Made by a program: the position numbers and the translations under genes
From: Gemmatirosa kalamazoonensis
Lineage (GTDB): Bacteria > Gemmatimonadota > Gemmatimonadetes > Gemmatimonadales > Gemmatimonadaceae
NCBI RefSeq assembly: GCF_000522985.1
Contig: NZ_CP007128.1
Location: forward strand, 4,758,220 to 4,822,219
Direction: 5' to 3'
Length of the DNA stretch: 64,000 bases
In this document: piece after piece, positions 5,564-63,233 of the stretch
Numbering within the stretch: position 1 is the first letter of the stretch
Layout: the number at the start of each line of letters is the position of its first letter
The notes under the pieces: model-generated
The model's database searches: none
Seen by the model: the letters and a program-made list of their open reading frames with translations, nothing else
What the model was told of the DNA's origin: nothing

Positions 5564-7173
5564 CGCGTCGGCGCCTCGCGGTGGGCGCCGCGCTGGCGCT
5601 CGCCGCCTGCTCGAGCACGGCGAGCGATCCGATCGACGCGGCGAGCGTCGAGCTGTCGGCATCGACGCTCACCGTCGTCGCCGGCGCGGACGCGCCGCTC
5701 ACCGCGCGCGTGCGCGACGCCGGCGGCCGCGACGTCGGCGGCACGGTGGTGTGGACGACGCGCGACGCGGGCATCGCGGCGGTCACGTCGTCGGCCTCGA
5801 GCACGGGGATCGTGCGCGGCGTCGCTCCGGGAACCACCCAGGTCGCCGCGAACTTCGCTGGCCGCTACGCCGTCGCCACGGTCACCGTCACGCCGCGGCC
5901 GGTCGCGTCCGTCGTCGTGCAGCCGTCGACGGTGGACCTGCGCGTCGGCGGCACGGCGCAGCTCCGCGCACGCACGCTCGACGCGGCGGGCGGCGAGCTG
6001 ACGGGGCGCACGGTGACGTTCGCGTCGAACGCCGCCGCCGTCGCGACGGTCGCGCCGGACGGGCTGGTGACGGCCGTGGCGCCGGGGACGGCGTCGATCA
6101 CCGTCGCGAGCGAGGGGCGCACCGCGCTCGTCGCCGTCACCGTGACCCCGATCCCGGTCGCCTCGGTCACCGTCGCGCCGTCGGCGCCGTCGATTCCGTT
6201 AGGCGGTACCGTGCAGCTCGCGGCCACGACGCTCGACTCGCTCGGCCGACCGCTCGCCGGGCGCGCCGTGACGTGGACGTCGAGCGACCAGGCGGTGGCC
6301 ACGGTCTCCTCGGGCGGGCTGGCGACGGGCACCGGCGTCGGCACCGCGCGCATCACCGCGACGATCGAGGGGCGCTCGGCGAGCGCCACGCTCACCGTGC
6401 TCCCCCGCCCCGTCGCGTCGGTCACGCTGTCGCTCGCGAGCACCACGCTCGCCGAGGGCGATACCGCGCGCCTCGCCGTCAGGCTCGCCGACGCGCAGGG
6501 GCAGCCGCTGAGCGGACGCGACGTGACGTTCGCGAGCGACGCGCCGAACGTCGCCCGCGTGAGCGCGACGGGGCTCGTGACGGCCGTCGCCGCGGGAACG
6601 GCGACGCTGTCGGCGACGAGCGAGGGCGTGCGCGGCACGGTCGTCGTCCGCGTGACCGCGCTCGCCGTCGCGGCGGTGCGCGTCAGCCCCGACACCACGC
6701 GGCTCGCCGTCGGCGCGACGGCGCGGCTCACCGCGACGCCGCTCACCGCCGGCGGCGCGCCGATCGCCGGCCGCACGATCGCGTGGACGAGCGGAGCGCC
6801 CGGCGTGGCGACCGTGGCGAGCGACGGCACGGTCACCGCGCTGTCCGGCGGCGTCGCGGTGATCTTCGCGCAGACGGGTGGCGTCGTGGGCCAGGCCGTG
6901 GTGATCGTGCAGGCGCCGACGGTGCAGCGCGTGATCGTCTCGCCGGGCACCGCGTCGACCCCCGTCGGGTCGTCCGTGACGCTCGTCGCGACGCCGGTCG
7001 ACGCGGCGGGTGCGACGATCACGGGACTTCCCGTCACGTGGTCGACGAGCGACGCATCGGTCGCCATCGTATCGAGCAGCGGCCGCGTCGTGGGCCTCGC
7101 CGTCGGCACCGTCACCATCGGCGCCGCGAGCGGCGGCGCGACCGGCACCGCGACGGTGACGATCACGCCGTGA
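5560..7173 (+). CDS. BIG2-repeat lipoprotein
   Basis: A 537-residue protein whose ATG overlaps the stop of the preceding giant BIG2 gene (ATGA). It has a lipoprotein signal peptide with lipobox LAAC at about residue 17, followed by six BIG2 Ig-like domains. The repeats are diverged from each other and lack the Pro-rich linkers of the neighbouring protein. It is probably an outer-surface partner or shorter paralogue of the upstream lipoprotein. The run of overlaps from 1478 to 7173 argues for coordinated, roughly stoichiometric translation. No ligand can be named from sequence. Confidence 0.85.
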   Translation: MTRRRLAVGAALALAACSSTASDPIDAASVELSASTLTVVAGADAPLTARVRDAGGRDVGGTVVWTTRDAGIAAVTSSASSTGIVRGVAPGTTQVAANFAGRYAVATVTVTPRPVASVVVQPSTVDLRVGGTAQLRARTLDAAGGELTGRTVTFASNAAAVATVAPDGLVTAVAPGTASITVASEGRTALVAVTVTPIPVASVTVAPSAPSIPLGGTVQLAATTLDSLGRPLAGRAVTWTSSDQAVATVSSGGLATGTGVGTARITATIEGRSASATLTVLPRPVASVTLSLASTTLAEGDTARLAVRLADAQGQPLSGRDVTFASDAPNVARVSATGLVTAVAAGTATLSATSEGVRGTVVVRVTALAVAAVRVSPDTTRLAVGATARLTATPLTAGGAPIAGRTIAWTSGAPGVATVASDGTVTALSGGVAVIFAQTGGVVGQAVVIVQAPTVQRVIVSPGTASTPVGSSVTLVATPVDAAGATITGLPVTWSTSDASVAIVSSSGRVVGLAVGTVTIGAASGGATGTATVTITP

Positions 7174-8261
7174 GCCTCACGCCTAACGACGCCTCGATGA
7201 TCCGCCGCACTGCCGCCGTCATTCTCGCCACGCTGCTCCTCTCCACGCACGCGGTCGCGCAGACGCTCGCACCGAAGCGCACGCTGCCGCTGCCGCCGCC
7301 GGGCTGCGCGCGCGCCGTCGCCGCGGCCACGCCGCGCCAGGACAACGCCGAGGCCCGCCGGCTCGCGGCGCAGGGGCGCGAGGCGGCGCTCGTGGGCGAC
7401 CGCAGCGGGGCGCGCGACGCGTTCCGCCGCGCCGCCGCGCTCGACCCGAACGACGACCAGATCGCCTACGCGTTAGGCCGCGCCGACGAGGAGCTCGGCG
7501 ACGCCGCGGCCGCCGTCGTCGACTACTGCCGCTATCTCGCGCTGTCGCCGACGGGACGCGACGCCGACGACGTGCAGCAGCGCGTGCTCCGGCTCTCGCC
7601 GGCGGGTACCGCGGACGCCGCGCGGCGCGCCCAGGAGCGCTTCCGCGCCGGCCTCGCCGCGCTCGACGCCGGCCGGTGGGAGGCCGCCGCGGCGGCGTTC
7701 GACGAGACCGTGCGCCTCGCGCCGCCCGCGCCGGAAGCGGTGTACGACCGCGCCATCGCGCGGCTTCGGCTCGGCCGGCGCGACGCCGCCGCGCGCGACC
7801 TCGAGGCGTACCTCACGGCGTCGCAGTCGGCGGACGACCGCGCGGCGGTGCTCCGCGCGCTCGACGCGCTCCGCCGCCCGACGTACGACGCGTCGACGGC
7901 GCTCGTGCGCGGGCTGGTGTTCCCCGGGCTCGGCCAGTTCTACACGGGGCGGCCCGCGCTCGGCGTCGTCGCCGTCGGACTCGCGGGCGCCGCGGTGGGC
8001 GGCGCGCTGTACGAGCGGACGGTGGTGCGCGATCGCACGTTCCTCGACGCGTTCGGCCGCCCGTACACGCAGGCGGTGCCGGAGCGCGAGCGCCCGTACG
8101 TCGTGCCGTCGATCGCCGCGGGGGCCGGCGTGTGGCTGCTCGCCGCGCTCGAGGCGCGACATCACGCCGGCGCGTCGACGGCGAGCGCGCGACGCGTCGG
8201 CGCGGCACCGGTGGTGTCACCGCGGGGACGCGCGGGCGTGCAGGTGCGCGCGACGTTCTGA
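7170..8261 (+). CDS. Exported TPR protein with C-terminal membrane segments
   Basis: I chose the GTG at 7170 because it overlaps the previous TGA (GTGA), like the other couplings here; an ATG at 7197 gives the same signal peptide (IRRTAAVILATLLLSTHAVAQ). The mature part has a TPR-like helical region (residues about 60-230: GREAALVGDRSGARDAFRRA, then a YALGRADEELGD repeat). A C-terminal region follows with two hydrophobic segments and the motif PGLGQFYTGRP, typical of DUF5683/TM2-like membrane proteins. It closes the RCC1-BIG2-BIG2 cluster and may be the periplasmic or membrane assembly factor for these surface proteins; that role is inference. Confidence 0.75.
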   Translation: MSLTPNDASMIRRTAAVILATLLLSTHAVAQTLAPKRTLPLPPPGCARAVAAATPRQDNAEARRLAAQGREAALVGDRSGARDAFRRAAALDPNDDQIAYALGRADEELGDAAAAVVDYCRYLALSPTGRDADDVQQRVLRLSPAGTADAARRAQERFRAGLAALDAGRWEAAAAAFDETVRLAPPAPEAVYDRAIARLRLGRRDAAARDLEAYLTASQSADDRAAVLRALDALRRPTYDASTALVRGLVFPGLGQFYTGRPALGVVAVGLAGAAVGGALYERTVVRDRTFLDAFGRPYTQAVPERERPYVVPSIAAGAGVWLLAALEARHHAGASTASARRVGAAPVVSPRGRAGVQVRATF

Positions 8262-8342
8262 TCGGTTGCGCAGCGTCGTCTGGCGGCGCGCCGCGCCCAC
8301 CAGTACGATCCTCGCCACCACGCGCATCACTCGGAGGATCGC

Positions 8343-10427
8343 ATGCCCCGCCACCGTCTGCCGTACGCGGCGCTCGTCCTGCTCCTGGTCGCGACGCCGC
8401 CGGCCGTCCCTGCGCAGCCTGCTGCGACGCCGCCTAACGCGGCCGCGGCGCGCCCCCGCGACCGCGTCGCGCTCGAGCAGTACCTGGACTGGGAGGACGT
8501 CCAGAATCCGCAGATCTCCCCCGACGGCTCGACGATCATCTTCACCCGCCGCTGGGTGGACAAGATGAACGACCGCTGGGAGACGTCACTGTGGCAGATG
8601 AACGCCGACGGCACGCGCCCGCGCGCGCTCGCGCAGGGCTCCGACGCGCACTGGTCGCCCGACGGCAAGCGCATCGCGTACATCGCGCGCGGGGAGCCCA
8701 ACGCCTCGTCGCAGATCTTCGTGCGGTGGATGGACGCCGAGGGCGCGACGACCCAGATCTCGCACGTCACCGAGGCGCCGTCGGCGCTCGAGTGGTCGCC
8801 CGACGGCAAGCAGCTCGCGTTCACGATGAACGTCCCGGTGCGCGACAACTGGCGCATCGCGATGCCCACGCCGCCGAAGGGCGCGAAGTGGATCGAGGCC
8901 CCGAAGGTCGTCACGCGGCTGAACTACCGCTCCGACCGCATCGGCTTCACCGACGAGGCGTACCGTCACGTGTTCGTGATCCCGGCCGACGGCGGCACGC
9001 CGCGCCAGCTCACGACGGGCGACTTCAACCACGCCGCGCCGAGCTTCTCCGCCGACGGCAAGTGGGTCGCGTTCTCCGCGTTCCGCGTCGCCGACTCCGA
9101 GCGCATGTTCCGCCGCTCGCAGATCTACGCGGCGAACGTGGAGACCGGGGAGATCAAGCAGCTCACCCAGAGCGTCGGGAACAACGGCAATCCGGTGTAC
9201 TCGCCCGACGGCCGCCACATCGCGTATCTCTCGGCCGACTCCACCGACCACTCGGCCACCGCGGAGACGAAGCTCGTCGTCATGAACGCGGACGGCTCGG
9301 CCCCGCACGTCGCGTCGGGCACGCTCGACCGCCCGATCGCGGGGCAGTTCTGGTCGCCCGACGGCGCGAGCCTCTACTTCAACGTCGAGAGCGAGGGGTC
9401 GCGCAACTTGTACGTGACCGGGCTGACGGGCGCGCCGCGGCCGGTGACCACGGGCACGCACGTGCTCGTGGTCTCGAACGTCGGCCGCAACGGCCTCGCC
9501 GTCGGCGTACGCTCGACGCCCACGAAGCCGAACGACGTGGTGACGTTCACGATCCCGAAGACCGGCGCCGCGACGACGTTCGCGCAGCTCACGAACGTCA
9601 ACGACGACGTGCTCACCGGCAAGAAGCTCGCGACGACGGAGGAGATCTGGTATCCGTCGAAGGACGGCCTGAAGATCCAGGGATGGATCGTGAAGCCGCC
9701 GGACTTCGACCCGTCGAGGAAGTACCCGCTCATCCTCGACATCCACGGCGGGCCGCAGTCGATGTACAACGTGGCGTTCAGCTTCGCGCGGCAGGACCAC
9801 GCGGCGGACGGCTACGTCGTGCTGTACACGAATCCGCGCGGCAGCACGGGCTACGGCATCAAGTTCACGAACGAGATCAAGAACGCGTACCCGGGCAAGG
9901 ACTTCGACGACCTCATGGCGGGCGTCGACACCGTCGTCGGGCGCGGCTACGTCGACACGAAGCGGATGTTCGTGTACGGCTGCTCGGGCGGCGGCGTGCT
10001 CACCGCGTGGATCGTCGGCCACACCGACCGCTTCGCCGCGGCGGCGTCGCTCTGCCCGGTCACGAACTGGATGAGCTTCGTCGGCACGACGGACGGCGCG
10101 GCGTGGTACGACAACTTCGAGAAGCCGTTCTGGGAAGATCCGAGCGAGTACCTGCGCCGCTCGCCGATCATGTACGTCGGCAACGTGAAGACGCCGACGC
10201 TGCTCATGACCGGCGTGCAGGATCTGCGCACGCCGATCCCGCAGACGGAGGAGTTCTATCGCGCGCTGAAGATGCGCGGCGTGCCGACGGCGATGATCCG
10301 CATGAACAACGAGTACCACGGCACCTCGAGCACGCCGTCGAACTTCCTGCGGACGCAGCTCTACCTGCGGAGCTGGTTCGACCGCTTCGCGCCCGGCCCG
10401 CGCGCGACGACGGCAGCGATGCAGTGA
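8343..10427 (+). CDS. Secreted S9 family prolyl-oligopeptidase-type peptidase
   Basis: A 694-residue dipeptidyl/acylaminoacyl-peptidase family protein with a GGAGG ribosome site 5 nt before the ATG and a cleavable signal peptide ending near residue 26 (AVPAQ). The N-terminal two-thirds is a WD40/TolB-like beta-propeller (repeats ending SPDGKxIAY). The alpha/beta-hydrolase domain begins around residue 430 with the oxyanion segment ILDIHGGPQSMYN. The catalytic triad is visible: Ser548 in GCSGGG, Asp627 in QDLRTP, His659 in EYHGT. The elbow has Gly where many S9 enzymes have Tyr (GxSYGG). It probably degrades peptides in the periplasm or medium. It is transcribed alone and ends at a strong hairpin. 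Confidence 0.93.
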   Translation: MPRHRLPYAALVLLLVATPPAVPAQPAATPPNAAAARPRDRVALEQYLDWEDVQNPQISPDGSTIIFTRRWVDKMNDRWETSLWQMNADGTRPRALAQGSDAHWSPDGKRIAYIARGEPNASSQIFVRWMDAEGATTQISHVTEAPSALEWSPDGKQLAFTMNVPVRDNWRIAMPTPPKGAKWIEAPKVVTRLNYRSDRIGFTDEAYRHVFVIPADGGTPRQLTTGDFNHAAPSFSADGKWVAFSAFRVADSERMFRRSQIYAANVETGEIKQLTQSVGNNGNPVYSPDGRHIAYLSADSTDHSATAETKLVVMNADGSAPHVASGTLDRPIAGQFWSPDGASLYFNVESEGSRNLYVTGLTGAPRPVTTGTHVLVVSNVGRNGLAVGVRSTPTKPNDVVTFTIPKTGAATTFAQLTNVNDDVLTGKKLATTEEIWYPSKDGLKIQGWIVKPPDFDPSRKYPLILDIHGGPQSMYNVAFSFARQDHAADGYVVLYTNPRGSTGYGIKFTNEIKNAYPGKDFDDLMAGVDTVVGRGYVDTKRMFVYGCSGGGVLTAWIVGHTDRFAAAASLCPVTNWMSFVGTTDGAAWYDNFEKPFWEDPSEYLRRSPIMYVGNVKTPTLLMTGVQDLRTPIPQTEEFYRALKMRGVPTAMIRMNNEYHGTSSTPSNFLRTQLYLRSWFDRFAPGPRATTAAMQ

Positions 10428-10432
10428 ACGCG

Positions 10433-10496
10433 GCTGCGTGGCTGCGTGGCTGCGTGCCTGCGTGACGGGACCCACGCAGCCGCGCAGCCACGCAGC
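10433..10496. terminator. Long hairpin between convergent genes (bidirectional terminator)
   Basis: A 24-bp stem (10433-10456 with 10473-10496, one mismatch) around a 16-nt loop sits exactly between the convergent S9 peptidase and amylase stops. The arms are made of iterated GCTGCGTG units. There is no clear U-tract, so it may act as a structural terminator for both transcripts. Confidence 0.65.
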
Positions 10497-10499
10497 GAC

Positions 10500-12362
10500 T
10501 CACCCGAGCACCTGCACTTCCATCGGCCGCAGCGCCACCCGCACCACCGCCGCGGGGCCGGTGCCTGACGATCCGTCGACCTCGCGGACCTCGATCGCGC
10601 CGGTCACGCGCACCGCACCGGGTGCCGCGGGGTCGGCGCGGTTCGCGTGCAGCACGGCGAACGTCGATCCCGGGGCATTGAGCGATGCGTCGACGATCAC
10701 CTCCCCGACGAACCCGTCGCTCGCGCTCGTGTTCGCGACGACGAGCACCTCGCGGTCACCGAGGATGCGCGAGAACGCGAGCACGCCGGCGCGGAACGGT
10801 GACACGCCGAAGTGCACGCCGTCCCCCGACACGGGGCGGAAGTAGAAGCGACCGTAGCGCAGCGCGGGCGTGCGGCGGCGCAGGTCGGAGAGCGCGCGCA
10901 GCGCTCGCGCGAGCGGGTGCGCGGGGTCGAACGCGCCCGGCTTCCCCCACAGCGCCTCGCGCACGTTCTGGTCGCTCGCGCCGCGGCCGGCGAGCCCCTG
11001 CTCCGTGCCGTAGTACACGCACGGGATCCCGGGCAGCGCGAACTGGCACGCGAGCGCCAGCGTCACCTGGTCGTCGTAGCGATGCGGGTCGTCGGCCGCC
11101 TCGAAGCGGAATCGCTCGTGCTGGTCGTGGTTGTCGAGGAACGTGACGAAGAAGCGCGTCGCTTCGCCGTGCGAGCTCACGACCTCGCGCTCCACCGCCT
11201 TGCGCCGCTGGTACACGCCGGCGATCTCGCTCGGCGGCAGCATCCCCTTCAGCACGGCCGGAAGCTTGAAGAACAGCGGGAAGTCGAGCGCCGCGTCGAC
11301 GCCGACGATCTCCGCGTTCGCGTCGCGCGTGTTGCGGCCGACGAACCGCGCGATCTGCGCCTCGTCGTCGTACACCTCGCCGAACGTGAAGAAGTTCTTC
11401 TTGCCGGCGCCGAGCGCGAACTCGCGCATCGCGTTGCCGAACGTGCGCGCGAACTCGCGGTCGAGGTACTTCAGCGTGTCGACGCGGAAGCCGTCGACGT
11501 CCCACCGCGCGATGACGTACTGGTGCGCGCGAATGAGCGCGTCGGCGACCGCGGGATCGCTCGTCACGAGCTGCTTCAGCGAGCCGAAGTCGCCGATCGT
11601 CTCGGGGCCGTCGGCGGCGGGCGCGCCCTGGCGGCGGAACATCGCGTCGTGCCGCAGCTCGTCGGGGAACACCGCGGCGTCGAGCGGCGGCAGGCTGCCG
11701 ATGGCGTCCGCGGTGGTCCACTCCGGCCGCGCCACGCCGTGCGCGTCGCGCCAGTGGATCCTGCGCGGCGCGTCGGCGTGCGCGGCCGTCGATCCGCCGT
11801 CGTACGCGAACACGTCGCCTGTGTGGTTCAACACGATGTCGAGGATGACGTAGATCCCGCGCGCGTGCGCGTCGTCGACGAGCCGCCGCAGCTCGGCGTC
11901 GGCGTGCCGCGGGTCCGAGGCGTAGCGGGGATCGACGGCGAGGAAGTTCTGGATCCCGTAGCCGTGGTACGTGCCCTCGTTCGGCGCGCCGTCGACGCGC
12001 GCGACGTTGCGCAGCACGGGCGTGATCCACAGCGCGCCGACGCCTAACGACTGCAGGTAGTCGAGCCGCCGCCGCACGCCGTCGATCGTGCCGCCCTGGA
12101 AGCCGCCGAACGGCGCGTCGAACGGCAGGTGCCGCGGCGGCGCGTGCGGGTTGTCGAACCGGTCCACCATCGCGAAGTAGATCCACCCGTCGCGCCAGTC
12201 CGCCGGCGACGGCGTGAGCGGGCGCACCGGATCGGGCTCGCGCACCGCGTCGATCGCGGCGCGAACCTCGGGCCCGCGCACCGATCGCGGCACGGCGGTG
12301 GGGGGAGCGCCGGTGAACGGCGCGGGAGCAGGACGCGTGCGGGAGCGCGGTGACCGGGGCAT
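10500..12362 (-). CDS. GH13 alpha-amylase family glycosidase
   Basis: A 620-residue protein starting at the ATG at 12362, which has an AAGGGA ribosome site upstream; the frame stays open beyond it, but only through palindromic intergenic DNA. All four GH13 regions are present: DIVLNHTG, GFRVDTLKY (nucleophile Asp), FTFGEVYDD (acid/base Glu) and FLDNHDQ. A C-terminal all-beta domain follows. No signal peptide is evident (the N-terminus is Arg/Pro/Ala-rich), so it may act in the cytoplasm, unlike the two GH13 enzymes at 38-41 kb. Substrate is alpha-1,4-glucan or maltooligosaccharide by family; exact specificity is unknown. Confidence 0.9.
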   Translation of the reverse strand: MPRSPRSRTRPAPAPFTGAPPTAVPRSVRGPEVRAAIDAVREPDPVRPLTPSPADWRDGWIYFAMVDRFDNPHAPPRHLPFDAPFGGFQGGTIDGVRRRLDYLQSLGVGALWITPVLRNVARVDGAPNEGTYHGYGIQNFLAVDPRYASDPRHADAELRRLVDDAHARGIYVILDIVLNHTGDVFAYDGGSTAAHADAPRRIHWRDAHGVARPEWTTADAIGSLPPLDAAVFPDELRHDAMFRRQGAPAADGPETIGDFGSLKQLVTSDPAVADALIRAHQYVIARWDVDGFRVDTLKYLDREFARTFGNAMREFALGAGKKNFFTFGEVYDDEAQIARFVGRNTRDANAEIVGVDAALDFPLFFKLPAVLKGMLPPSEIAGVYQRRKAVEREVVSSHGEATRFFVTFLDNHDQHERFRFEAADDPHRYDDQVTLALACQFALPGIPCVYYGTEQGLAGRGASDQNVREALWGKPGAFDPAHPLARALRALSDLRRRTPALRYGRFYFRPVSGDGVHFGVSPFRAGVLAFSRILGDREVLVVANTSASDGFVGEVIVDASLNAPGSTFAVLHANRADPAAPGAVRVTGAIEVREVDGSSGTGPAAVVRVALRPMEVQVLG

Positions 12363-12499
12363 GATTCCCTTTCGCGGCTCGTGGTGCGGCGCCGCGCCGT
12401 CGCCACTTCGCGACGTGGCGCGCCGCGGGGAGCATGGGTGTGCACGCGCGGGGCGGCAAGCGTCCCCGGCGGTCGCGGAGCCATTCTTGCGCGGCATCG

Positions 12500-12720
12500 T
12501 CTCGCGCGGAGGCGCGGAGGACGCGGAGCACGGCCTCTTTGAGTCGAACCGCAGAGGACGCAGAGGGCCGCAGAGAAACCTCAACTGCTCTTGACCACGG
12601 AGGGCACAGAGGACACGGAGAAAACCAACTGTAGCGGTACTGCTTCGTGTCCTCCGTGCCCTCTGTGGTTCAAAACCAACAAGAGGCAGTGCTCCGCGTG
12701 CTCCGCGTCTCCGCGTGAGA
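12500..12720. repeat. Nested palindromic intergenic repeat block
   Basis: This fills most of the 368-bp gap 12363-12730. An outer imperfect inverted repeat (12500-12541 with 12677-12720, built from gcggaggacgcggagcac-like units) encloses an inner one (12591-12617 with 12645-12673, gaggacacgg-like units, two mismatches). A 32-nt segment at 12544-12575 is identical to the left arm of the hairpin at 49271. Short open frames crossing the block are low-complexity and I do not call them genes. It belongs to a dispersed repeat family with further members at 21269 and 49271. Confidence 0.8.
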
Positions 12721-12730
12721 TCCGAACAGC

Positions 12731-13648
12731 ATGCAGCTCCCACTCGTCGCACTCACCTTGCTGTCGCTCGCGACCGCGCAGCCGCCGCGGCCCATCGTGC
12801 TGATCGTGCACGGCCGCGGACAGGCCGGGCGCGACTCGGCCGCGCTGCGGCGCGACGCGCTCGACGCGCTGCGCGAGGGGGCGCGCGCGGCCACCGGGCG
12901 CGCGCTGCTCGACGACGACGACGTGCGCGTGGTGTGGTACGCCGATCTGCTCGCGGCGCGCGGCACGACGGGCGGCTGCGGCGACGACGTTAGGCTCCCC
13001 GTGGCGAAGGACTCGCCGCTCGGCGTCTTCGCCCAGGTCGCCGGCGCGCTGCTCGACGCCGTCGCGAGCGCGGCACGCTCGGACGCGCCGAACGACTCGT
13101 CGACGCGCGAGCTCGGAAGCCTCGCCGGCGACCTGCACTTCCTCGGCGATCCCGGCTCGCGCTGCGCGGCCGAGCGTCGTGTGGGCGACGCGCTGGCGCG
13201 GGCGCGGCGCGAGCACCGCCCCGTGGTGCTCGTCGCGCGCAGCTTGGGCGGCCTCGTCGCGTGGGGCGACCTGCTGCGCGACACGACCACGTCGCGCGCG
13301 CCGCTCGTCTACCGACTCGTCACGCTCGGCTCGCCCGTCGCGTCGGCCGACGTGCGCCGGCTGCTGTTCGGCGACGAGCGCTCGGCCGACGTGCCGCCGG
13401 GTGTGGGGTCGTGGCGCAACGTCGTGGGCGAGGGCGATCCGTTCGCGGCGCACGCCACGTCGATCGACTCGCTCGCCGACAGCGCGCGCGTCGCCGATCT
13501 GCGCACCGAGTCACCACATCGTGACGATCCTCATGGGCTGCTCGGCTACCTGCGCGACCCGACCACGGCGCGCGCGGTGATCGGTGCGTGGTGCGATGCG
13601 GCGCGGCGCAGCGACGCGTCGTGCATGGCGCTGCGCACCCCACGCTGA
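12731..13648 (+). CDS. Secreted alpha/beta-hydrolase
   Basis: A 305-residue protein with a short signal peptide (residues 1 to about 17). The fold is suggested by strand-plus-oxyanion motif VLIVHGRGQ near residue 24, the nucleophile elbow VARSLGG with Ser171, and a late His in DDPHGLLGYL. It resembles lipase or esterase-like hydrolases that act on small esters or lipids, but the substrate cannot be told. The start lies directly downstream of the palindromic repeat block with no strong ribosome site, so promoter and start are uncertain. Confidence 0.7.
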   Translation: MQLPLVALTLLSLATAQPPRPIVLIVHGRGQAGRDSAALRRDALDALREGARAATGRALLDDDDVRVVWYADLLAARGTTGGCGDDVRLPVAKDSPLGVFAQVAGALLDAVASAARSDAPNDSSTRELGSLAGDLHFLGDPGSRCAAERRVGDALARARREHRPVVLVARSLGGLVAWGDLLRDTTTSRAPLVYRLVTLGSPVASADVRRLLFGDERSADVPPGVGSWRNVVGEGDPFAAHATSIDSLADSARVADLRTESPHRDDPHGLLGYLRDPTTARAVIGAWCDAARRSDASCMALRTPR

Positions 13649-24934: not shown

Positions 24935-25444
24935 GTGTCCAGCCCCGTGACTCCCGCTCGCGCCGACGCCGCCGGCGTCGCGTTCCTCACCGCCGACGCC
25001 TTCCGGCAGCACTGGCAGGGGCATCGCCGGCTCACCCGCCGCATGATCGAGGCGTTCCCCGAGGACAAGCTGTTCACGTTCTCCATCGGCGGGATGCGCT
25101 CGTTCGGCGACCTCGCCTGGGAGCTCGTGCGCATGGCCGCGCCGATGGTGCGCGGTGCGGCGACGGGCGAGTGGGCCGTGGTCGACTGGAAGGCCGCGCC
25201 CCCGCAGTCGCGCGACGAGCTGCTGCGCGCGTGGGACCAGAGCACCGCGGACATCGACGCGAACTGGGCGCGGATCCCCGCCGAGCGGTTCAACGAGACC
25301 ATCACCGCGTTCGGCAGCTTCACCGGCGTCACGAACGACCTGCTGCTGTACACGATCGACAACGAGGTCCACCACCGCGGCCAGGGCTACGTCTACCTGC
25401 GCGCGTTGGGCATCGAGCCGCCGCCGTTCTGGGAGCGGCAGTAG
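24935..25444 (+). CDS. DinB-fold (YfiT-like) metal-dependent protein
   Basis: A 169-residue protein with a GTG start preceded by GAGG. The four-helix DinB fold is recognised from the C-terminal signature NEVHHRGQGYVYLRALG followed by EPPPFWER, which supplies two of the usual three metal-binding His; the first is probably one of the His in QHWQGHRR near the N-terminus. Relatives include bacillithiol or mycothiol-type transferases and uncharacterised damage-inducible proteins. It is divergent from the PadR operon, but I see no evidence of shared function beyond a shared intergenic region. Confidence 0.88.
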   Translation: MSSPVTPARADAAGVAFLTADAFRQHWQGHRRLTRRMIEAFPEDKLFTFSIGGMRSFGDLAWELVRMAAPMVRGAATGEWAVVDWKAAPPQSRDELLRAWDQSTADIDANWARIPAERFNETITAFGSFTGVTNDLLLYTIDNEVHHRGQGYVYLRALGIEPPPFWERQ

Positions 25445-25458
25445 CGGGTCGAGCGCGA

Positions 25459-28400
25459 TCAGCGGCGGAACACGAAGCCGAACACGCCCATTCGGATCTC
25501 CTCGCCGTCGCGCAGCGGTCGGCGGCCGAGGATCCGCTCGCCGGCGACGGCGGTGCCGTTCGACGAGTTCGCGTCCTCGACGAACCAGCCGCCGTCGTCC
25601 ACGTCCAGCACGGCGTGGTAGCGCGACACGCTCCAGTGCGCGAGCACGATGTCGTTCTCGCTGTTGCGGCCGAGCGTGGTGCGTCCCTCGAGCCGGAAGC
25701 CCGCCGGCGCGGCGCGCGTCCGCGAGCTCACGTGGTCCGCGGGCCCGTCCACGAGCGCGAGGCCGGGACGCGGTGCGCGCGTGGGGTCGGGCGGCGTGTA
25801 CGGCGTGGGCGGCGGCGCGGCGACGAGCCCCGGTGCGGTGCGCGACGCCACGACCGGCGCCGCGGCTCCCTTCACCGGTGCGGCCTGCGCCGCGGGCAGC
25901 GCGGGGGTCCAGTGGGGTGTCGGCAGGTCGGCGAGGCTCACCTCGTCCCCGCCGCTCCACACGGAGTGCTCCGCGACCGGTTCCACGCCCGCGTTGGTGC
26001 GCGCCTGATCGAGCGCCTCCACCGCGCGCCCCGCGTCACGCACCTCGCGGACGAGGGCCTGCAGGTCCACCGGCGCGTCGTTCCCCGCGGCCGCGCGAAG
26101 CTCGTTCGCCACCGCCGACATCCGCTCGTACCGGTCCGCCGGGTCCTTCGCGAGACAGCGCAACACGATCGCCTCGACCTCGGGCGCGATCGGCGCGTGA
26201 CGCGAGAGCGGGGGCGGCTCGCGATGCGCGTGCGCCGCCAGCACGTCGACGAGGTCCGCGTCGTCGAACGGGTAGACACCCGTGAGCAGGCGATAGAGCA
26301 CGACGCCGAACGAGTACACGTCCGAGCGCTCGTCGACACTGCGGCCCAACGCCTGCTCGGGGGAGATGAAGCGCGGCGTGCCCACGAGCATGCCGTCGCG
26401 CGTGCGCGACCCGTGCTCGCCGTCGGCCATGCCGCGCCGGCTGATGCCGAAGTCGAGCACGCACACGCGCCCGGCCGACGTCACCATGATGTTCTCCGGC
26501 TTCACGTCGTTGCGCACGAAGCCGTGCTGGTGCACGTAGTCGATCGCCTCCGCAGCGGGGCCGGCGATCGCCACCACGGTGTCGAGGTCGAGCCGGCCGC
26601 AGCGCCGCACGACCTCCTCCGCCGTCACGCCATCGACGAGATCCATCGCGATGTACACGTGCCCGTTCGAGCGGCCCGTGTCGCGCAGCCGCACGATGTT
26701 CGGGTGGTCGAGCGCGCCCAACACTCTCGCCTCGCGCTCGAACCGCGCGACCATCTCGTCGTTGTTCGCCAGCGCGTCGAGCAGCAGCTTCACCGCGACG
26801 CGCTCGCCGCTCCGCTCGTCGAGCGCCTCGTAGACGACGCCCATGCCGCCGCGCCCGATCTCGCGCACGATGCGGAAGCGTCCGACCGCCTTCGGCGCCG
26901 GTGTGCCCTTCCCCGGCGCGGCGTCCGCCGCGTCGCCGTCGAGCGCATCGAGCTCCGCGGTCGTGGCGCGTGCACCGAGCTCCACGAGCCGTCGCGCCGT
27001 GACGCGGTAGCGTGCACCTTCCTCGGCGGCGGCCGCGCCGACGACCACGCGTGAGAGGCTCTGCTTCGACGACTGGATGTACTCGGCGTCGAGCAGGATG
27101 CGCACGATGTCCTCGGCCACGCGCGGCGCGATCTCCTCGGCGAGCGCGATCTTGGCGCTCAGGCGGCGCGACGCGTCGAGCACGTCCTTCAGCGTGAACT
27201 CCGCGGTGCCGCGCCGCAGGATCCAATCGATGAGATAGTAGACGCCGAGCCGGCGCTTGTCGCTCTGGGTCCCGACGACCTCCTCGTGCGACTCCCCGAA
27301 CAGCGTCGCGGCGTGCGCGTCGATCAGATCCTGCAGGCCGGCGAACAGCCGCACGCGCCGCACGTCCTCCGCGGTGAACGCGAGCGCGGGCCGGTGGCCG
27401 TCCCACTCGACGTACTCGTTGAACGTGCGGATGATGCGGCGCGGGATGCCGCGGCCGCGGTAGGCGAGATACTTCTTGAACGCCGCGTAGACCTCGCGCC
27501 CCCACGGCGCCCACCCGTTCGAGTCGTCGACGAGCGTGTCGCAGATGGCGTCGACGTCGGTCCACAGGCACGGCAGGTACTTGTCGTACGCGAAGACGCT
27601 CTCGTACACCGAGTCGCCGCGCCCCACGTCCTCGAGCCATCGCTCGTGGAGGTCCTTGCCGGCGACGAAGATGAACGTGATGCCCGACGTCGTGAACAGG
27701 TTCTTCAGCGCGCCGATGATGCCGTCGATCGCCGGCCGGCGCGGCTTCTCCCCGTCGGCGGCGCGCGCGAACTCCTCGAGCTTGTCCAGCTCGTCGAACA
27801 CGAAGATGATCTTGAGACGCACGCGCGCCGGCGGCCCGTCGCGGAACCGGCGCCAGCGCGACGTCGGCGGCACGTAGCCCGCCGCGAGCCGCCGCGAGAT
27901 CGTGATGACGTCGTGCTCCGCCGCCTTGTCGTCGTAGCCGAGGAACGACGTCTCCTGCTGGCTCGAGCGCGAGCGCTTCGCCGTGAGCGAGAGCTTGAGC
28001 GCGGCCTTCATCCACTCGCCGCCGAGGCTCGCCTCGTCGACGCCGAGCTCCGACGACTCCGCGGTCTGCCGCGCCATGTTCATGGACGTGCGCTGGAACG
28101 CGAGCGTCAGCGCGTCGCGCAGATCCGCGTCGAGCCGCTCGTAGATCCCGCGCTCGCGCAGCCGATCGTGCAGCCGGCGGATGATGTGGTGCATCATCTC
28201 GCCCGGCCGCACGGGACGCGCGACGTTCAGGTACACGTCGACGACCTCGGTCTCGCCGAGCAGCGTCCGCGCCCAGGCGAGCGAATCGTCGAGCGTGCGG
28301 ATGACCTGGTTGACGAACGACGTCTTGCCGACGCCGCGGTAGCCCGTGACGAGGAACGAGCCGCCCTCGGAGAACAGGATCCGCTCGGCGAGCGACTCCA

Positions 28401-28809
28401 GCTCGTTGCGCCGTCCGACGAAGCGCGGCGCCGCGCACTGCCCCACCGGCTCGTGCACGAAGCGGAACGCGGGGAGCAGCGGCACCGTGACCTCGCGCTT
28501 GTCCGGGTAGATCCGGAACGGTGGTGGCAGCGGCGGGGGCACGGTCGTGGGGCGCCGCATCCAGCCGCGGAGACGTGCCGACAACGGCGGAATCCGCTGC
28601 GGCTGGGGCCGCACCCGGACGAGCGTGGCGGCGAGCGAGGTGACGAGCGTCGTGGCGGGCCGCGTCGCGGCGAGCGTGTGCGACGGTGGCGGCGGTGGCG
28701 GCGGTGGCGCGGGCACGGGCGCGGGCCTCGACGCGAGCAGGACGCCGCAGTTGACGCAGAACGCGACGCCGTCGGCGTTGCCGTGGCCGCAGGTCGAGCA
28801 GAACACCAT
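25459..28809 (-). CDS. Zinc ribbon-AAA ATPase-Ser/Thr kinase-FHA fusion
   Basis: A 1116-residue protein with AGGGGG 5 nt before its ATG. Order: zinc ribbon (Cys4, 7, 18, 21); Pro-rich linker; AAA/STAND-like ATPase with Walker A GYRGVGKTS (Lys162), Walker B IIFVFDELDK (Asp339) and a winged-helix-like tail to about 600; Hanks-type kinase (about 640-900) with GRGGMGVVYE, Lys674, a catalytic loop reading RNDVKPEN (Asp768) instead of HRD, LDFGISR and SPEQ; Pro-rich linker; and an FHA domain (about 1020-1116: GRNSENDIVL, SRYHA, SSNGT). The kinase keeps its Lys and Asp and may be active. The FHA could bind the protein's own phosphothreonines. It lies 18 nt downstream of the MATE gene on the same strand. 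Confidence 0.9.
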   Translation of the reverse strand: MVFCSTCGHGNADGVAFCVNCGVLLASRPAPVPAPPPPPPPPSHTLAATRPATTLVTSLAATLVRVRPQPQRIPPLSARLRGWMRRPTTVPPPLPPPFRIYPDKREVTVPLLPAFRFVHEPVGQCAAPRFVGRRNELESLAERILFSEGGSFLVTGYRGVGKTSFVNQVIRTLDDSLAWARTLLGETEVVDVYLNVARPVRPGEMMHHIIRRLHDRLRERGIYERLDADLRDALTLAFQRTSMNMARQTAESSELGVDEASLGGEWMKAALKLSLTAKRSRSSQQETSFLGYDDKAAEHDVITISRRLAAGYVPPTSRWRRFRDGPPARVRLKIIFVFDELDKLEEFARAADGEKPRRPAIDGIIGALKNLFTTSGITFIFVAGKDLHERWLEDVGRGDSVYESVFAYDKYLPCLWTDVDAICDTLVDDSNGWAPWGREVYAAFKKYLAYRGRGIPRRIIRTFNEYVEWDGHRPALAFTAEDVRRVRLFAGLQDLIDAHAATLFGESHEEVVGTQSDKRRLGVYYLIDWILRRGTAEFTLKDVLDASRRLSAKIALAEEIAPRVAEDIVRILLDAEYIQSSKQSLSRVVVGAAAAEEGARYRVTARRLVELGARATTAELDALDGDAADAAPGKGTPAPKAVGRFRIVREIGRGGMGVVYEALDERSGERVAVKLLLDALANNDEMVARFEREARVLGALDHPNIVRLRDTGRSNGHVYIAMDLVDGVTAEEVVRRCGRLDLDTVVAIAGPAAEAIDYVHQHGFVRNDVKPENIMVTSAGRVCVLDFGISRRGMADGEHGSRTRDGMLVGTPRFISPEQALGRSVDERSDVYSFGVVLYRLLTGVYPFDDADLVDVLAAHAHREPPPLSRHAPIAPEVEAIVLRCLAKDPADRYERMSAVANELRAAAGNDAPVDLQALVREVRDAGRAVEALDQARTNAGVEPVAEHSVWSGGDEVSLADLPTPHWTPALPAAQAAPVKGAAAPVVASRTAPGLVAAPPPTPYTPPDPTRAPRPGLALVDGPADHVSSRTRAAPAGFRLEGRTTLGRNSENDIVLAHWSVSRYHAVLDVDDGGWFVEDANSSNGTAVAGERILGRRPLRDGEEIRMGVFGFVFRR

Positions 28810-28827: not shown

Positions 28828-30321
28828 CTAACGGCGCCCGTCGAGGTCCACCGCGATCGCGCGCCACTTCCCCTGGTTGAACCGCAGCACGCTCAGCGCG
28901 CAGCGCGTCACGTGCCCCACCAGGATCGCCACCCAGATGTCGATCGGGTCGAGGTGGCCGAGCCGCTGCACCACGAAGCAGATGCCGAGCGGCACGACGA
29001 TCTGCGACACGATGGAGATGTAGAGAGGGCTCTTCGTGTCGCCGGTGCCCTGCAGCCCGCCGGTGTACGTGAGCGCGACGGCGATGAACAGCCCCGACAC
29101 GCTGAGCACGCGGAGCAGCTGCACGCCGATCTCGCGCGCGGCGTCGTGCATGCCGAACAGCGCGAGGAGCGGCCCCGGAATGAAGAAGAACAGCGCGCCG
29201 AGCAGCGCCGCGCCGCCGAGCCCGTAGCGGGCCGCCGCGTGCACCGCTTCCTCGGCGCGGTCGGCGTTCCCCGCGCCGAGGTTCTGTCCCGCGACCGCGG
29301 CCGCCGCGCCGAGCAGTCCGGTGGACGTCCACGTGATGAGCGAGAAGAGCTGCGAGTAGCCGACCGCGAACGCCGCCTGCGCCGCCGCGCTCTGGGCGAG
29401 CGAGCCGATGAAGCCGAGCATCAGCACGCCGCCCACGTTCATCGCGATCCCCTGGATCCCCGTCGGAAGACCGAAGCGGAAGATCGAGCGGATGAGCGTC
29501 CAGTCGGGGAGCAGGGCGCGGCCGCGCGGGAAGCGCACGACCCAGCCGCCGTGCCACAGCCGCCACAGCGAGTACGCGCCGACGAGCGCCGACGCGATCA
29601 CGGTGCCCATCGCGGCGCCCCGCGTGCCATACGCCGGCACCGGCCCGTAACCGCGGATGAACAGCACGTTGAGCGCGGCGTTCAGCACCGTGAGCACGAT
29701 GCCGAGCACCATCGCCGTGCGCGCGTCGCCGGCCGAGCGGAGCGCAGCGCCGAGCATGAAGAACACGAGCATGCCGCCGCTGAACGCGAACACGATCCGC
29801 AGGAACGGCAGCGCCTCCGCGCGCACCGCCGGCGCGGCGTGCACGAGGTCGAGCAGGAACGGCGACGCGAAGTAGCCGACCGGCGCCATCACGCCGAGCG
29901 ACAGCACGATCGCGACGAGGAAGGCCTGGTACACCGTGCGATCCGCCGTCTCCTCGTCGCCCGCGCCGGCGAAGCGCGCCACCAGCACGCTCATGCCGGT
30001 GAACAGCGACATCATGAACACGATGACGACGACGAAGATCTGCCAGCTCACGCCGATCGCGGCGTTGCCGGTGTAGCCGACGAAGTTGCCGACGAGGACG
30101 TGGTCGATCATCCCCTGCAGCCCGCCGACGACGTTCGTGAGCATCGTGGGCCAGGCGAGCTTCCACACCGCCTCGCGCAGCGGGCCGTCGACGATGGAGC
30201 GGTCGAATCGACGCGATGAGATCGGCCGCGGCGGCGCGATCGGCGTGCGCGTCGGCGCGGCGGCCAGTGGAGGTGCGTCGGGGCCGAGCGCGCGCGGTAC
30301 CTCGGACGGTCGGAGCGACAT
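28828..30321 (-). CDS. MATE family efflux transporter
   Basis: About 497 residues from the ATG at 30321; the longer open frame has a non-coding-looking N-terminus. After a 40-residue cytoplasmic N-terminus (Pro/Arg-rich, ending RSIVDGPLREAVWKLAWPTM) there are twelve predicted hydrophobic segments in two MatE halves, e.g. NVVGGLQGMIDHVLVGNFVG and GGLQGTGDTKSPLY. MATE proteins export cationic drugs or metabolites using Na+ or H+ gradients; substrate here is unknown. The stop is TAG within a GTTAGGC element. The kinase-FHA gene follows 18 nt later, so regulation of the exporter by the kinase, or simple co-expression, is possible. Confidence 0.92.
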   Translation of the reverse strand: MSLRPSEVPRALGPDAPPLAAAPTRTPIAPPRPISSRRFDRSIVDGPLREAVWKLAWPTMLTNVVGGLQGMIDHVLVGNFVGYTGNAAIGVSWQIFVVVIVFMMSLFTGMSVLVARFAGAGDEETADRTVYQAFLVAIVLSLGVMAPVGYFASPFLLDLVHAAPAVRAEALPFLRIVFAFSGGMLVFFMLGAALRSAGDARTAMVLGIVLTVLNAALNVLFIRGYGPVPAYGTRGAAMGTVIASALVGAYSLWRLWHGGWVVRFPRGRALLPDWTLIRSIFRFGLPTGIQGIAMNVGGVLMLGFIGSLAQSAAAQAAFAVGYSQLFSLITWTSTGLLGAAAAVAGQNLGAGNADRAEEAVHAAARYGLGGAALLGALFFFIPGPLLALFGMHDAAREIGVQLLRVLSVSGLFIAVALTYTGGLQGTGDTKSPLYISIVSQIVVPLGICFVVQRLGHLDPIDIWVAILVGHVTRCALSVLRFNQGKWRAIAVDLDGRR

Positions 30322-50646: not shown

Positions 50647-50771
50647 CGTAATGATCGGCCGAGCAGTCGGACGCGCCGATACCGCGTCACGGTGGGGTGT
50701 GTCAGCTCGGTCGCTCCGAGCCGCGGGGCGACCCGCGTGACCCTCCGTGTCGGACCCCGGAGGGACATGCG

Positions 50772-53468
50772 GTGACGACCACCTGTTCGCACTGCGGTGC
50801 CGCGACCGCGCCGAGCGCGCTGTTCTGCAGCGGCTGCGGGCGAAGTCTCTCGCAGGCGAGCGTCGCCATCGCGACGCCTCCGGGCGTGCCGACGCTCTCC
50901 GGCGCCCCGACGCTCGACATCCTCGGGACGCTGCGCATCGCGCTCGCGGGACGCTACGACGTCGAGCGCGAGCTCGGGCGCGGCGGGATGGCCACGGTGT
51001 TCCTCGCGCGCGAGCCGCGGCACGACCGCGAGGTCGCCATCAAAGTGCTGCACCCCGAGCTGGCCGCCACGCTCGGCGGCGATCGGTTCGAGCGCGAGAT
51101 CCGACTCGCCGCGAAGCTGCAGCACCCGCACATCCTCGGGCTCTACGACTCCGGCGTCGCGGAGGGGCTGCTGTACTACGTGATGCCGTTCGTGCGGGGC
51201 GAGTCGCTGCGCGACCGGCTCGCGCGCGAGGGACAGCTCCCCGTCGACGAGGCGATCCAGATCACGCTGGAGGTGGCCGACGCGCTCGGGCACGCGCACG
51301 ACCATGGGATCATCCACCGCGACGTGAAGCCGGAGAACATCCTGCTCGCGAACGGCCACGCGCTGGTCGCGGACTTCGGCATCGCCCGCGCGCTGAGCGA
51401 GGCGGACAGCCACAAGCTGACGCAGACGGGGATGGCCGTCGGCACCCCGGTGTACATGGCGCCGGAGCAGTCGATGGGGGAGAAGGTCGGGCCGCAGGCG
51501 GACATCTACAGCCTGGCGTGCGTGCTGTTCGAGCTGCTCGCCGGCGAGCCGCCGTTCGCCGGCAAGAACGCGACGGCGATCATGGCGCGCCACGCCATGG
51601 AGCCGCCGCGGAGCGTGCGCGTCGTGCGCAGCGCCGTGCCCGAAGAGGTGGAGGAGGCGATCTTCGCCGCCCTCGAGAAGTCGCCCGCCGACCGGCCGAA
51701 GAGCGCGGCCGCGTTCGCGCAGCTGCTCGGCGCCGCGCCCGGCAGCACGGCGACGATGCGCGTGCGCGGGTACACGGCGACGCGGCGCCTTCCGTCCAAC
51801 CCGTACATCACGACCGCACCGCCGGCGGCACCGGTCGCGCGGTGGCGCCGGCCGGCGATGCTCGGCGCGCTCGGCGCGATCGTCGCGCTGCTGCTCGCCG
51901 GCGCGGCGGCGTGGCGCTTCGCGGGGCGCGGCGCCGCGTCTGGCACCGCCGGCAACGGGTCGGGGCGCGTCGCGGTGCTCTACTTCGACGACCGCAGCGC
52001 GGAGCACACGCTCGGCCCGCTCGCCGACGGACTCACCGAGGGGCTCATCGACGCGCTGGCCAGCGCGCCGAGCCTCACGGTGATCTCGCGCGACGCGGTG
52101 GCGCGCTTCCGCGGGGCGGCCGTGGCGCCGGACAGCGTCGCGCGCGCGGTGCGCGCGGGCTATCTCGTGCGCGGCGAGGTGGAGCCGGAGCGCGACGACA
52201 TCCGCGTCACGCTGCGGCTCGACGACGCGAGCGGCGTCAACCTGCGGCGCGTGAGCTTCCGGCGCCCGGCCGGCAACCTGCTCGCCATCCGCGACACCCT
52301 CACCGACGTCGCCGCGGAGCTGCTCCGCGCGGAGCTCGGGCAGGAGCTGCGACTGAAGGCGCAGCGCGCGAGCACCGCGAGCGCCGACGCGTGGCTGCTC
52401 GTGCAGCGCGGCGAGCAGGCGCGCCGGCGCGGCGAGGCCGCCGCAGCGAACGGCGACCCGGCGGGCAACGATCGCGCGTTCAGCGAGGCGGACACGCTGC
52501 TCGCGCGCGCCGCGACGGCGGACCCGCGATGGCCGCAGCCGGAGCTGCTGCGCGGCGTCGTCGCGTACCGCCGCTCACGCCTGGTCGGCCGCGACCCCGC
52601 GCTCATCCGCCGCTGGGTGGACAGCGGCGTGGTGCACGTGGCGCGCGCGCTCGCTCTCGCCCCGCAGCTTCCGGACGGGCTGGAGCTGCGCGGCAACCTG
52701 CGCTACTGGAGCTGGCTGATGGGGCTCGAGGCCGATCCCGTTAGGCAGAAGGCCCTGCTCGACTCGGCGCGCGCGGATCTCGAGAAGGCGACGACGCTCA
52801 ACCCGCGCCAGGCGGGCGCGTGGGCGACGCTGTCGCATCTCTACTACCAGGTCGCGACGCCGACCGAGGTGCAGATCGCGGCGCAGCGCGCGCTGGAGGC
52901 CGACGAGTTCCTGTCGAACGCGGACGTCATCCTCGGGCGGCTGTTCCTGTCGTCGTACGACCTCGGGCAGTTCGACAAGGCGGAGCAGTGGTGCGGCGAG
53001 CTCGGACGCCGCTTCGCCGCCATCCCGCTCGCCGTGCGCTGCCGGCTCTACCTGCTCACCACCAAGAACAAGGCGCCCGACGTCGCCCTCGCGTGGCGTC
53101 TGGCCGACTCGGTGGTCGCGCGCGCGCCGGCGGCGCAGCGGCCGGCGCAGCGGCTGTTCATGGACATGCTCGTCGGCGCCGTGATCGCGCGCGCGAGCCG
53201 CACGACGCCGGCCCTCGCCGACAGCGCGCGGCACGTCGTGCGCCGCGCGACGGGCGACGCGACGATCGACCCCGCGCGCGACGCGGCATACACCGGTGCC
53301 TGGGTGTACTCGCTGCTCGGCGACCGCGACGCCGCGCTGCAGCTGCTGCGAGAGTACCTCGCCGCGAACCCCGGACGCGTCGACGCGTTCCGCGACGATC
53401 CGGGGTGGTGGTTCCGCGACATGGCCGGCGATCCGCGCTTCCGTCGGCTCGTCGGCGCGACCGAGTGA
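50772..53468 (+). CDS. Receptor-type Ser/Thr kinase with TolB-like and TPR outer domains
   Basis: 898 residues from a GTG at 50772 with GGAGGG 7 nt upstream. Zinc ribbon (CSHCG, FCSGCG) at the N-terminus; Hanks-type kinase (about 55-320) with GRGGMATVF, Lys91, HRDVKPEN (Asp184), DFG and APEQ, so all key residues are present. One transmembrane helix (about 360-382) leads to an extracytoplasmic part: a TolB/FlgO-like domain (VAVLYFDDRSAEHTLGPLAD, GLTEGLIDAL, then YLVRGEVEPE) and a TPR-like helical region to the end. The architecture is common in Gemmatimonadota- and Acidobacteria-like genomes. Targets are unknown. Monocistronic. Confidence 0.92.
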   Translation: MTTTCSHCGAATAPSALFCSGCGRSLSQASVAIATPPGVPTLSGAPTLDILGTLRIALAGRYDVERELGRGGMATVFLAREPRHDREVAIKVLHPELAATLGGDRFEREIRLAAKLQHPHILGLYDSGVAEGLLYYVMPFVRGESLRDRLAREGQLPVDEAIQITLEVADALGHAHDHGIIHRDVKPENILLANGHALVADFGIARALSEADSHKLTQTGMAVGTPVYMAPEQSMGEKVGPQADIYSLACVLFELLAGEPPFAGKNATAIMARHAMEPPRSVRVVRSAVPEEVEEAIFAALEKSPADRPKSAAAFAQLLGAAPGSTATMRVRGYTATRRLPSNPYITTAPPAAPVARWRRPAMLGALGAIVALLLAGAAAWRFAGRGAASGTAGNGSGRVAVLYFDDRSAEHTLGPLADGLTEGLIDALASAPSLTVISRDAVARFRGAAVAPDSVARAVRAGYLVRGEVEPERDDIRVTLRLDDASGVNLRRVSFRRPAGNLLAIRDTLTDVAAELLRAELGQELRLKAQRASTASADAWLLVQRGEQARRRGEAAAANGDPAGNDRAFSEADTLLARAATADPRWPQPELLRGVVAYRRSRLVGRDPALIRRWVDSGVVHVARALALAPQLPDGLELRGNLRYWSWLMGLEADPVRQKALLDSARADLEKATTLNPRQAGAWATLSHLYYQVATPTEVQIAAQRALEADEFLSNADVILGRLFLSSYDLGQFDKAEQWCGELGRRFAAIPLAVRCRLYLLTTKNKAPDVALAWRLADSVVARAPAAQRPAQRLFMDMLVGAVIARASRTTPALADSARHVVRRATGDATIDPARDAAYTGAWVYSLLGDRDAALQLLREYLAANPGRVDAFRDDPGWWFRDMAGDPRFRRLVGATE

Positions 53469-62239: not shown

Positions 62240-63233
62240 GGTCGTCGTCCGGCTCGAAGGCCTTCGCGCCCTCGTAGATCTTCCGCAGCGGGACCGCCTT
62301 GGAGATGATGCGGTTGTGCGCGAAGTCGAGCATGTCCTGCGACGGCTCGCGCCCCAGCATGAGCCGCAGGAAGTCGCCGGTGTGCTCCGGCTGCCACGCC
62401 GTGAGCAGCGTCGGCGCCTCGATCCACTCCGCCGCGTCGTCGCCCGGCAGCCGCAGATAACCGTCGTCCGGCAGATCGCGCCCGGCGAGGCAGAGGATCG
62501 CGTTCTTCGGCCGCTGGTCCGGGTCGAGAAACACGCTCGTCAGCAGCGTCTCGAGCACCCAGTGCACCAGCTCCTGGTACTGTGCCTTCGCGTCGACGGA
62601 GTCGATGAAGATCACCATGAGCCGGTCTTCGCCGACGCCACGGAGGTCCTCGAAGAACGCGTTGACGATCGCGCGCTCGGCGCGCGGCCGCAGCTCCTCC
62701 TGCCACTGCGGTCGGGCGCGCTCCGGCACGTGCAGGTACGTCGGCGCCTGCGTGTTGATGATTATCCCGCCGACCTGCGCGTGATCGCGGACCTCGGCCC
62801 CGGCGGCGTCCACGCGTCCGACGAGCGGATCGGGGATCAGCGACGCGGTGTCCGCACGCTCGCGAGCGCGCGGCTGGGGGACGAACGGCGCGGGATCCTT
62901 CAGCTCGAGCGCGACCTGCAGGCGGTCGAACTCCGGCAGCGCGTCGCGGCCGAGCTGGTCGGCGAGCGCACTGACGAGCGAGTACGCCGTCGGGCCGGCG
63001 TGGTCCTCGAGGTCGACCGCGCACGCCGCGATGCGCGGCGGCAGCTTGCGGTGCTGTCTGCACGCCCAGTGCAGCTTGCGCAGCAGGAGCGTCTTGCCGC
63101 AGCCGGCGCGTCGGTCGCGGATGAGATAGACGCGCGCGGGCCGACCGCGCACGATCATCTCCTCGAAGATCCCTTGCTGCGGACCGTTGTCGGGAATGTC
63201 CTTCTCGGGGATCTGCTTCGTCAGTGGCGGCAT
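62232..63233 (-). CDS. AAA/STAND-like P-loop ATPase
   Basis: A 333-residue protein. Walker A is RDRRAGCGKTLLLRKL (Lys47); Walker B is RLMVIFIDSVD (Asp211) after a strand; an arginine-bearing sensor-like segment AILCLAGRDLPDDGYLRL follows. The C-terminal part (GDFLRLMLGREPSQDMLDFA) is helical, as in STAND NTPase heads before the winged helix, which here begins the next gene. The stop overlaps the TPR gene start by 8 nt and it follows the P-loop gene at 63252 by 18 nt. Probably the active NTPase of the four-gene system. Confidence 0.82.
   Translation of the reverse strand: MPPLTKQIPEKDIPDNGPQQGIFEEMIVRGRPARVYLIRDRRAGCGKTLLLRKLHWACRQHRKLPPRIAACAVDLEDHAGPTAYSLVSALADQLGRDALPEFDRLQVALELKDPAPFVPQPRARERADTASLIPDPLVGRVDAAGAEVRDHAQVGGIIINTQAPTYLHVPERARPQWQEELRPRAERAIVNAFFEDLRGVGEDRLMVIFIDSVDAKAQYQELVHWVLETLLTSVFLDPDQRPKNAILCLAGRDLPDDGYLRLPGDDAAEWIEAPTLLTAWQPEHTGDFLRLMLGREPSQDMLDFAHNRIISKAVPLRKIYEGAKAFEPDDDHG

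Follow-up and report, generated by a model that had tools for sequence, protein, structure and literature searches.

A rare bacterial protein joining a predicted ORC-like ATPase, a Hanks-type kinase with an RND catalytic loop and an FHA domain in a single chain

The window analysed here is a stretch of 64,000 nucleotides from Gemmatirosa kalamazoonensis (contig NZ_CP007128.1). A gene on its minus strand (25459..28809) starts with ATG and encodes a protein of 1116 amino acids, in which a zinc ribbon, an ATPase with a winged-helix-like tail, a kinase with RND in its catalytic loop, a linker and an FHA domain follow one another. The coordinates of all these parts refer to the minus strand. The protein is soluble by hydropathy: no 19-residue segment has a mean hydropathy of 1.6 or more. 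The zinc ribbon (aa 1–24, 28738..28809) stays below the Pfam cut-off (20.1 bits against 25), but its CxxC-x10-CxxC pattern is intact. The gene starts 18 bp past a MATE exporter gene on the same strand (28828..30321, minus strand) and ends 14 bp from a convergent gene for a DinB-family protein (24935..25444, plus strand); together these two genes mark the place that the kinase gene occupies. Elsewhere in the window, on the minus strand at 56404–62239 and 62232–63233, there are two matches to FHIPEP (FlhA/SctV C-terminal), one of them fused to many TPRs, beside a small NPHP3-like P-loop protein. FHIPEP lies here apparently outside a secretion operon, possibly in a signalling or conflict operon.

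Genome contigs were scanned with the N-terminal 615 residues, using exact peptides of this one query, and four relatives were found. Three of them are whole-protein homologues: one in an Acidobacteria MAG (L014:5358-8765), one in the cyanobacterium Scytonematopsis contorta (L015:5920-9264) and one in a gammaproteobacterial MAG (L016), where the gene is frameshifted between two ORFs at 5890–9199 and no zinc ribbon was seen upstream of these ORFs. The known family thus has four members, one of them frameshifted; the true number is probably higher, because the scan used exact peptides of one query. All three homologues are co-linear with the window protein. Full-length identities are 50% to the Acidobacteria and 42% to the cyanobacterial homologue, and both of these retain the two CxxC pairs of the zinc ribbon. 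The ATPase core is the most conserved domain (68% and 56%), followed by the kinase domain (45% and 39%), the FHA domain (36–38%) and the linker (23–26%). The single-chain architecture proposed in the earlier note is borne out by Pfam and by co-linear homologues: the orthologues carry the same fusion, and the ATPase part does match a P-loop NTPase profile. Co-linearity at these identities in two other phyla, together with RND in all four known members, argues that the RND fusion is more than chance. This signalling variant of the Hanks kinases, with its RND loop and ATPase fusion, is rare and spread between phyla. It looks like a signalling machine passed on horizontally and not like the accident of a single genome; horizontal transfer probably brought in the whole gene as one unit.

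The P-loop ATPase core (aa 106–480, 27370..28494) is supported by Pfam, predicted fold and homologue identity. A long helical insert separates Walker A (GYRGVGKT, aa 156–163, 28321..28344) from Walker B (IFVFDE, aa 335–340, 27790..27807), and Walker A is invariant among the homologues except for T or S at its last position. Pfam matches to P-loop NTPases lie at about residues 129–234. KAP_NTPase matches at 136–224, over the N-terminal third of the profile only, with 20.3 bits against a cut-off of 20.0, and AAA_16 at 129–198 with 31.8 bits, under its cut-off of 32.6. The P-loop assignment stands. Against the STAND profile nSTAND1 the window protein gives 0.071, and the best of the homologues 0.0097. 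The rest of the module (aa 481–615, 26965..27369) is helical and winged-helix-like according to model m4031c2def165 and to alignments with ORC chains that reach model residue 514.

Two AlphaFold models of the ATPase, both of modest confidence, were compared with known structures (541 aa, pLDDT 63.6; 395 aa, pLDDT 67.9). The better one aligns with archaeal ORC2 1w5t (VIA Z 14.7, rmsd 6.2, 248 residues); for the RdrA ring 8hr8 the values are VIA Z 13.9, rmsd 5.7 and 275 residues, and for TnsC 7mcs VIA Z about 13, rmsd 5.7 and 252 residues, the three scores being tied within the resolution of the method. Resemblance to CED-4, Apaf-1 and NRC2 is weaker. By predicted fold the ATPase is AAA+/ORC-like; it may have an ORC/Cdc6-type AAA+ core with a winged-helix tail, to judge from Z 14.7 to 1w5t on a model of pLDDT 68, and sequence matches are weak. 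Membership in RADAR was considered and rejected: the similarity to RdrA is one of fold, the sequence match is weak and confined to the surroundings of the P-loop (E 0.017), and no deaminase was found among the scanned neighbours of the window gene.

The ATPase module also occurs with other partners. In a soluble protein of a Nitrospira MAG (L017) it is followed by TPRs and there is no kinase (BLASTP 1e-30). More distant relatives are giant proteins of 2601 aa (L047 and L173) and 2336 aa (L170 and L174), which hhalign connects with the window module (97.5%, E 7e-12 for L173/L174). In KAP P-loop NTPases, membrane helices typically separate Walker A from Walker B; such an insert is absent from the window protein, and the giants L173 and L174 carry many hydrophobic segments at this place. 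The C-terminal region is long in both, and in L173 it matches TPRs weakly. Since the module is joined to TPRs in the Nitrospira protein and occurs in the giants as well, the kinase–FHA part replaces another partner domain. As an observation apart, the L173 gene (1925–9727, the 2601-aa NTPase) is directly followed by a UvrD/Rep-type helicase gene (9818–13066), and the two could be a defence pair. Profile searches with an alignment of four ATPase sequences, requiring a match over most of the model, found no other genome with the module among 298 searched in Gemmatimonadota, and no further one among 386, 396 and 329 genomes of the phyla of the cyanobacterial, Acidobacteria and gammaproteobacterial homologues, respectively. 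Matches of P-loop length elsewhere (mostly 45–65 residues, E about 1e-7 to 1e-3) were left out of the family.

The Hanks-type Ser/Thr kinase domain (aa 640–910, 26080..26892) is recognised by Pfam (Pkinase at 646–901, E 3.5e-44) and by phmmer to PknB 3ori. The domain is full and has the VAIK Lys, the catalytic Asp, the Asn and the DFG. In its catalytic loop FVRNDVKPENIM (VRNDVKPEN), R766-N767-D768 (26506..26514) stand in place of H-R-D. Alignment with PknB confirms what the earlier note had read: Arg stands where PknB has His, Asn stands where it has Arg, and the catalytic Asp, Lys and Asn are unchanged. RND is kept in all four members, as are K674 (the VAIK Lys), D768, N773 and D786 (DFG). 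None of the four is thus an RD kinase, the residue before the catalytic Asp being Asn in each. Four independent genomes exclude a sequencing error as the source of RND. It is important to note how unusual the motif is among related kinases. HRD is present in 71 of the 74 other host-genome kinases with a readable motif, the remaining three having HGD, HLD and HFD, and RND in none; among 101 comparison kinases, His is always found at the first position and Arg or Lys at the second in 95%. RND is also not a general kinase variant, an idea that we rejected because a pattern search of 273 genomes of the cyanobacterial phylum returned the known gene and one match reading Ser-Asn-Asp. In the literature searched, which covered few subscription journals, no report was found of a bacterial RND catalytic loop or RND clade, or of an ATPase–kinase–FHA fusion.

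In a maximum-likelihood tree of 105 kinase domains (the window protein, its three homologues, 74 host kinases and 27 others from the homologues' genomes) the four RND kinases form one clade with support 100/99, separate from all the host kinases. Of the kinases in each homologue's genome, the RND kinase is by a wide margin the closest to the query. We also looked for alignment columns in which all four RND kinases have lost a residue that 80% or more of the 101 remaining kinases share. Only columns 759, 766, 767 and 790 passed, around the catalytic loop and the DFG or base of the activation loop; at 759 Ala becomes Val or Ile, and at 790, two residues past the Gly of DFG, Ala becomes Ser or Thr. 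On sequence grounds, these changes may be read as one remodelling and not as decay. Both equivalents of the activation-loop Thr residues of PknB are T or S in one of the four RND kinases, compared with 33 of 63 host kinases. One such Thr remains in three of the four, so activation-loop phosphorylation could still occur. Altered activation-loop control, as suggested in the earlier note, may follow from the loss of the HRD Arg, the joint change of neighbouring positions and the scarcity of the Thr pair. Apart from these, a second Ser/Thr kinase is encoded in the window (50697–53468, plus strand), also with an N-terminal zinc ribbon and with an ordinary HRD.

A Pro/Thr-rich linker (aa 911–1040, 25690..26079) leads to the FHA domain (aa 1044–1108, 25486..25680; Pfam E 1.1e-18), in which the GR, SRxH and NG motifs are complete. 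In the homologues these motifs are only partly kept: the Asn of NG is Arg in the Acidobacteria, Ser in the cyanobacterial and Leu in the gammaproteobacterial protein, which also has Gln for the SxxH His. Judged from its motifs, the window FHA domain is likely to bind phosphothreonine, and as a trait of the family such binding is less sure. The FHA-mediated self-recruitment suggested in the earlier note is weak, the NG Asn being kept in the window protein only. FHA domains are few in the host genome, where only three exceed the cut-off as against 82 kinase matches; one of them (G000:C2:4317227-4317439) directly precedes a kinase match at C2:4317535. Near the Acidobacteria homologue, two genes upstream, a gene at L014 3381–4748 encodes an M48 peptidase that carries an FHA domain at its C-terminus.

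How could these parts work together? With middling confidence, we propose a non-RD kinase, probably active, that is gated by an ATPase switch able to oligomerise. The architecture is observed, and the mechanism is what we infer from it. The AAA+/ORC-like module, with its helical insert and winged-helix-like tail, would be sensor and switch, and the kinase would be the output. A signal, possibly received via the zinc ribbon, would set ATP binding or hydrolysis, and this would assemble the chains into an oligomer in which kinase domains are brought together or released. The kinase would then be turned on by proximity or conformational release, independently of the usual activation-loop phosphate, and the FHA domain would dock on a phosphothreonine of the same assembly (in cis) or of a substrate. 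Assembly driven by ATP, already suggested in the earlier note, is proposed here on the basis of the predicted-fold resemblance to RdrA and TnsC, AAA+ proteins that act as rings or filaments. We regard the kinase–FHA half as the output of the ATPase because the ATPase is the conserved core and carries TPRs elsewhere. Independence from the activation-loop phosphate is suggested by the missing catalytic-loop Arg and by the surrounding residues, which changed together.

The position of the gene allows another explanation, namely that the kinase is co-transcribed with the adjacent MATE exporter and controls export. The same strand and the distance of 18 bp do make co-transcription likely. However, 38 of 58 other genomes of the family carry a MATE orthologue (57–77% identity), and all 34 of these that were also searched for the ATPase gene lack it. 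In the relative G015 (L187) the MATE and DinB genes lie next to each other at a distance of 0.4 kb, convergent as in the window, and there is no kinase gene between them. Nor did the Acidobacteria, cyanobacterial and gammaproteobacterial loci show a MATE-like ORF adjoining the gene. We therefore reject the MATE exporter as a part of the system, and the link to it made in the earlier note falls; that the kinase controls export is very improbable. The gene-free site is most simply explained by gain of the gene in the lineage of the window, and loss elsewhere is also possible. The gene has the base composition of its host (GC3 0.96 in the ATPase part), so the gain was not recent or the donor was equally GC-rich.

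Patchy distribution also fits a sensor of phages or other conflicts, in which an NLR/STAND-like or RdrA-like NTPase detects an invader and the kinase, as effector, shuts the cell down or signals onward. The gene is sparse in distant phyla and absent from relatives, its ATPase resembles RdrA of RADAR in fold and more weakly CED-4, Apaf-1 and NRC2, and it has TPR-bearing relatives, one of them followed by a UvrD helicase gene. KAP ATPases displace STAND NTPases in conflict systems, where effectors include S/T/Y kinases and FHA domains (PMC8195603). Against this, the annotated neighbours of the window gene (MATE, DinB, PadR, DsbA-like, GH43) are ordinary genes and not a defence cluster, the ATPase gives weak PADLOC matches, the best being mad8 with 0.0049 in one homologue, and no ATPase relative was found in viral contigs or plasmids; among the matches listed, those in phage records covered only query residues 643–941, the kinase domain. 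A defence role is possible, with fold resemblance and patchy distribution pointing to it, and we consider the conflict sensor clearly less probable than the gated kinase. The MADS system (mad6 kinase, mad8 ATPase) was rejected as an assignment: NCBIfam MADS6 gives 146 bits against a cut-off of 460, over the kinase part only, and mad8 is weak. Less probable still is a pseudokinase scaffold, in which the kinase fold, having lost the His and Arg of HRD, only binds partners. Most kinase domains in surveyed conflict systems have disrupted catalytic residues (PMC7159879), and the non-RD kinase EFR needs no kinase activity of its own to signal (PMC8463890). Yet all four members keep the VAIK Lys, catalytic Asp, Asn and DFG without exception, a conservation not expected once function is lost, and non-RD kinases can autophosphorylate, as EFR does (PMC8463890). 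Rather unlikely, too, is a broader picture in which the protein is a bacterial version of NLR/RIPK-type signalling within one chain. The AAA+ switch would sense an invader and assemble, and assembly would activate the fused non-RD kinase, its catalytic loop having been rebuilt to respond to proximity; the gene would have spread between phyla for defence.

The proposed gating of the kinase is of interest beyond this locus. Hanks kinases are usually switched by activation-loop phosphorylation via the HRD Arg. Here is a small bacterial clade lacking the His and Arg of HRD, in which the catalytic residues are kept and the same ATPase is present in all four members. It offers a soluble, tractable system for two questions: how ATPase assembly could gate a kinase in place of activation-loop phosphorylation, and whether bacteria, like plants and animals, combine loss of the RD Arg with immune-like sensing.

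The protein shares features with several known systems and differs from each. KAP P-loop NTPases (PF07693) are matched barely over the profile cut-off and through distant relatives with hydrophobic segments, whereas the window protein is soluble and its helical insert is not a membrane one. RdrA of RADAR (PDB 8hr8, 8fnt; PMC9994260) has by predicted fold the same AAA+ core (Z 12.6–13.9), but it is a heptameric ring ATPase acting with a separate deaminase, RdrB (PMC9994260), and not fused to a kinase and FHA domain. PknB-type Hanks kinases (PknB, PDB 3ori; phmmer 5.8e-54) agree with it in kinase fold and in the catalytic Lys, Asp, Asn and DFG; the window protein differs in having RND for HRD, no PASTA or transmembrane part, an ATPase before the kinase and an FHA domain after it. 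In RD kinases the Arg neutralises the phosphorylated activation loop (PMC1262709), and non-RD kinases occur in plants (PMC8463890) and archaea (PMC5682000). EFR (PMC8463890) and the Sulfolobus non-RD kinases (PMC5682000) have lost the catalytic-loop Arg as the window protein has; EFR, however, is a membrane receptor with Cys in its place, while here His becomes Arg and Arg becomes Asn in a bacterial ATPase fusion. FHA and kinase share one chain also in fusions of cyanobacteria and Chloroflexus, and the 2005 survey that lists them (PMC1262709), in whose text neither 'ATPase' nor 'AAA' appears as a word, has them without an ATPase, which the window protein adds.
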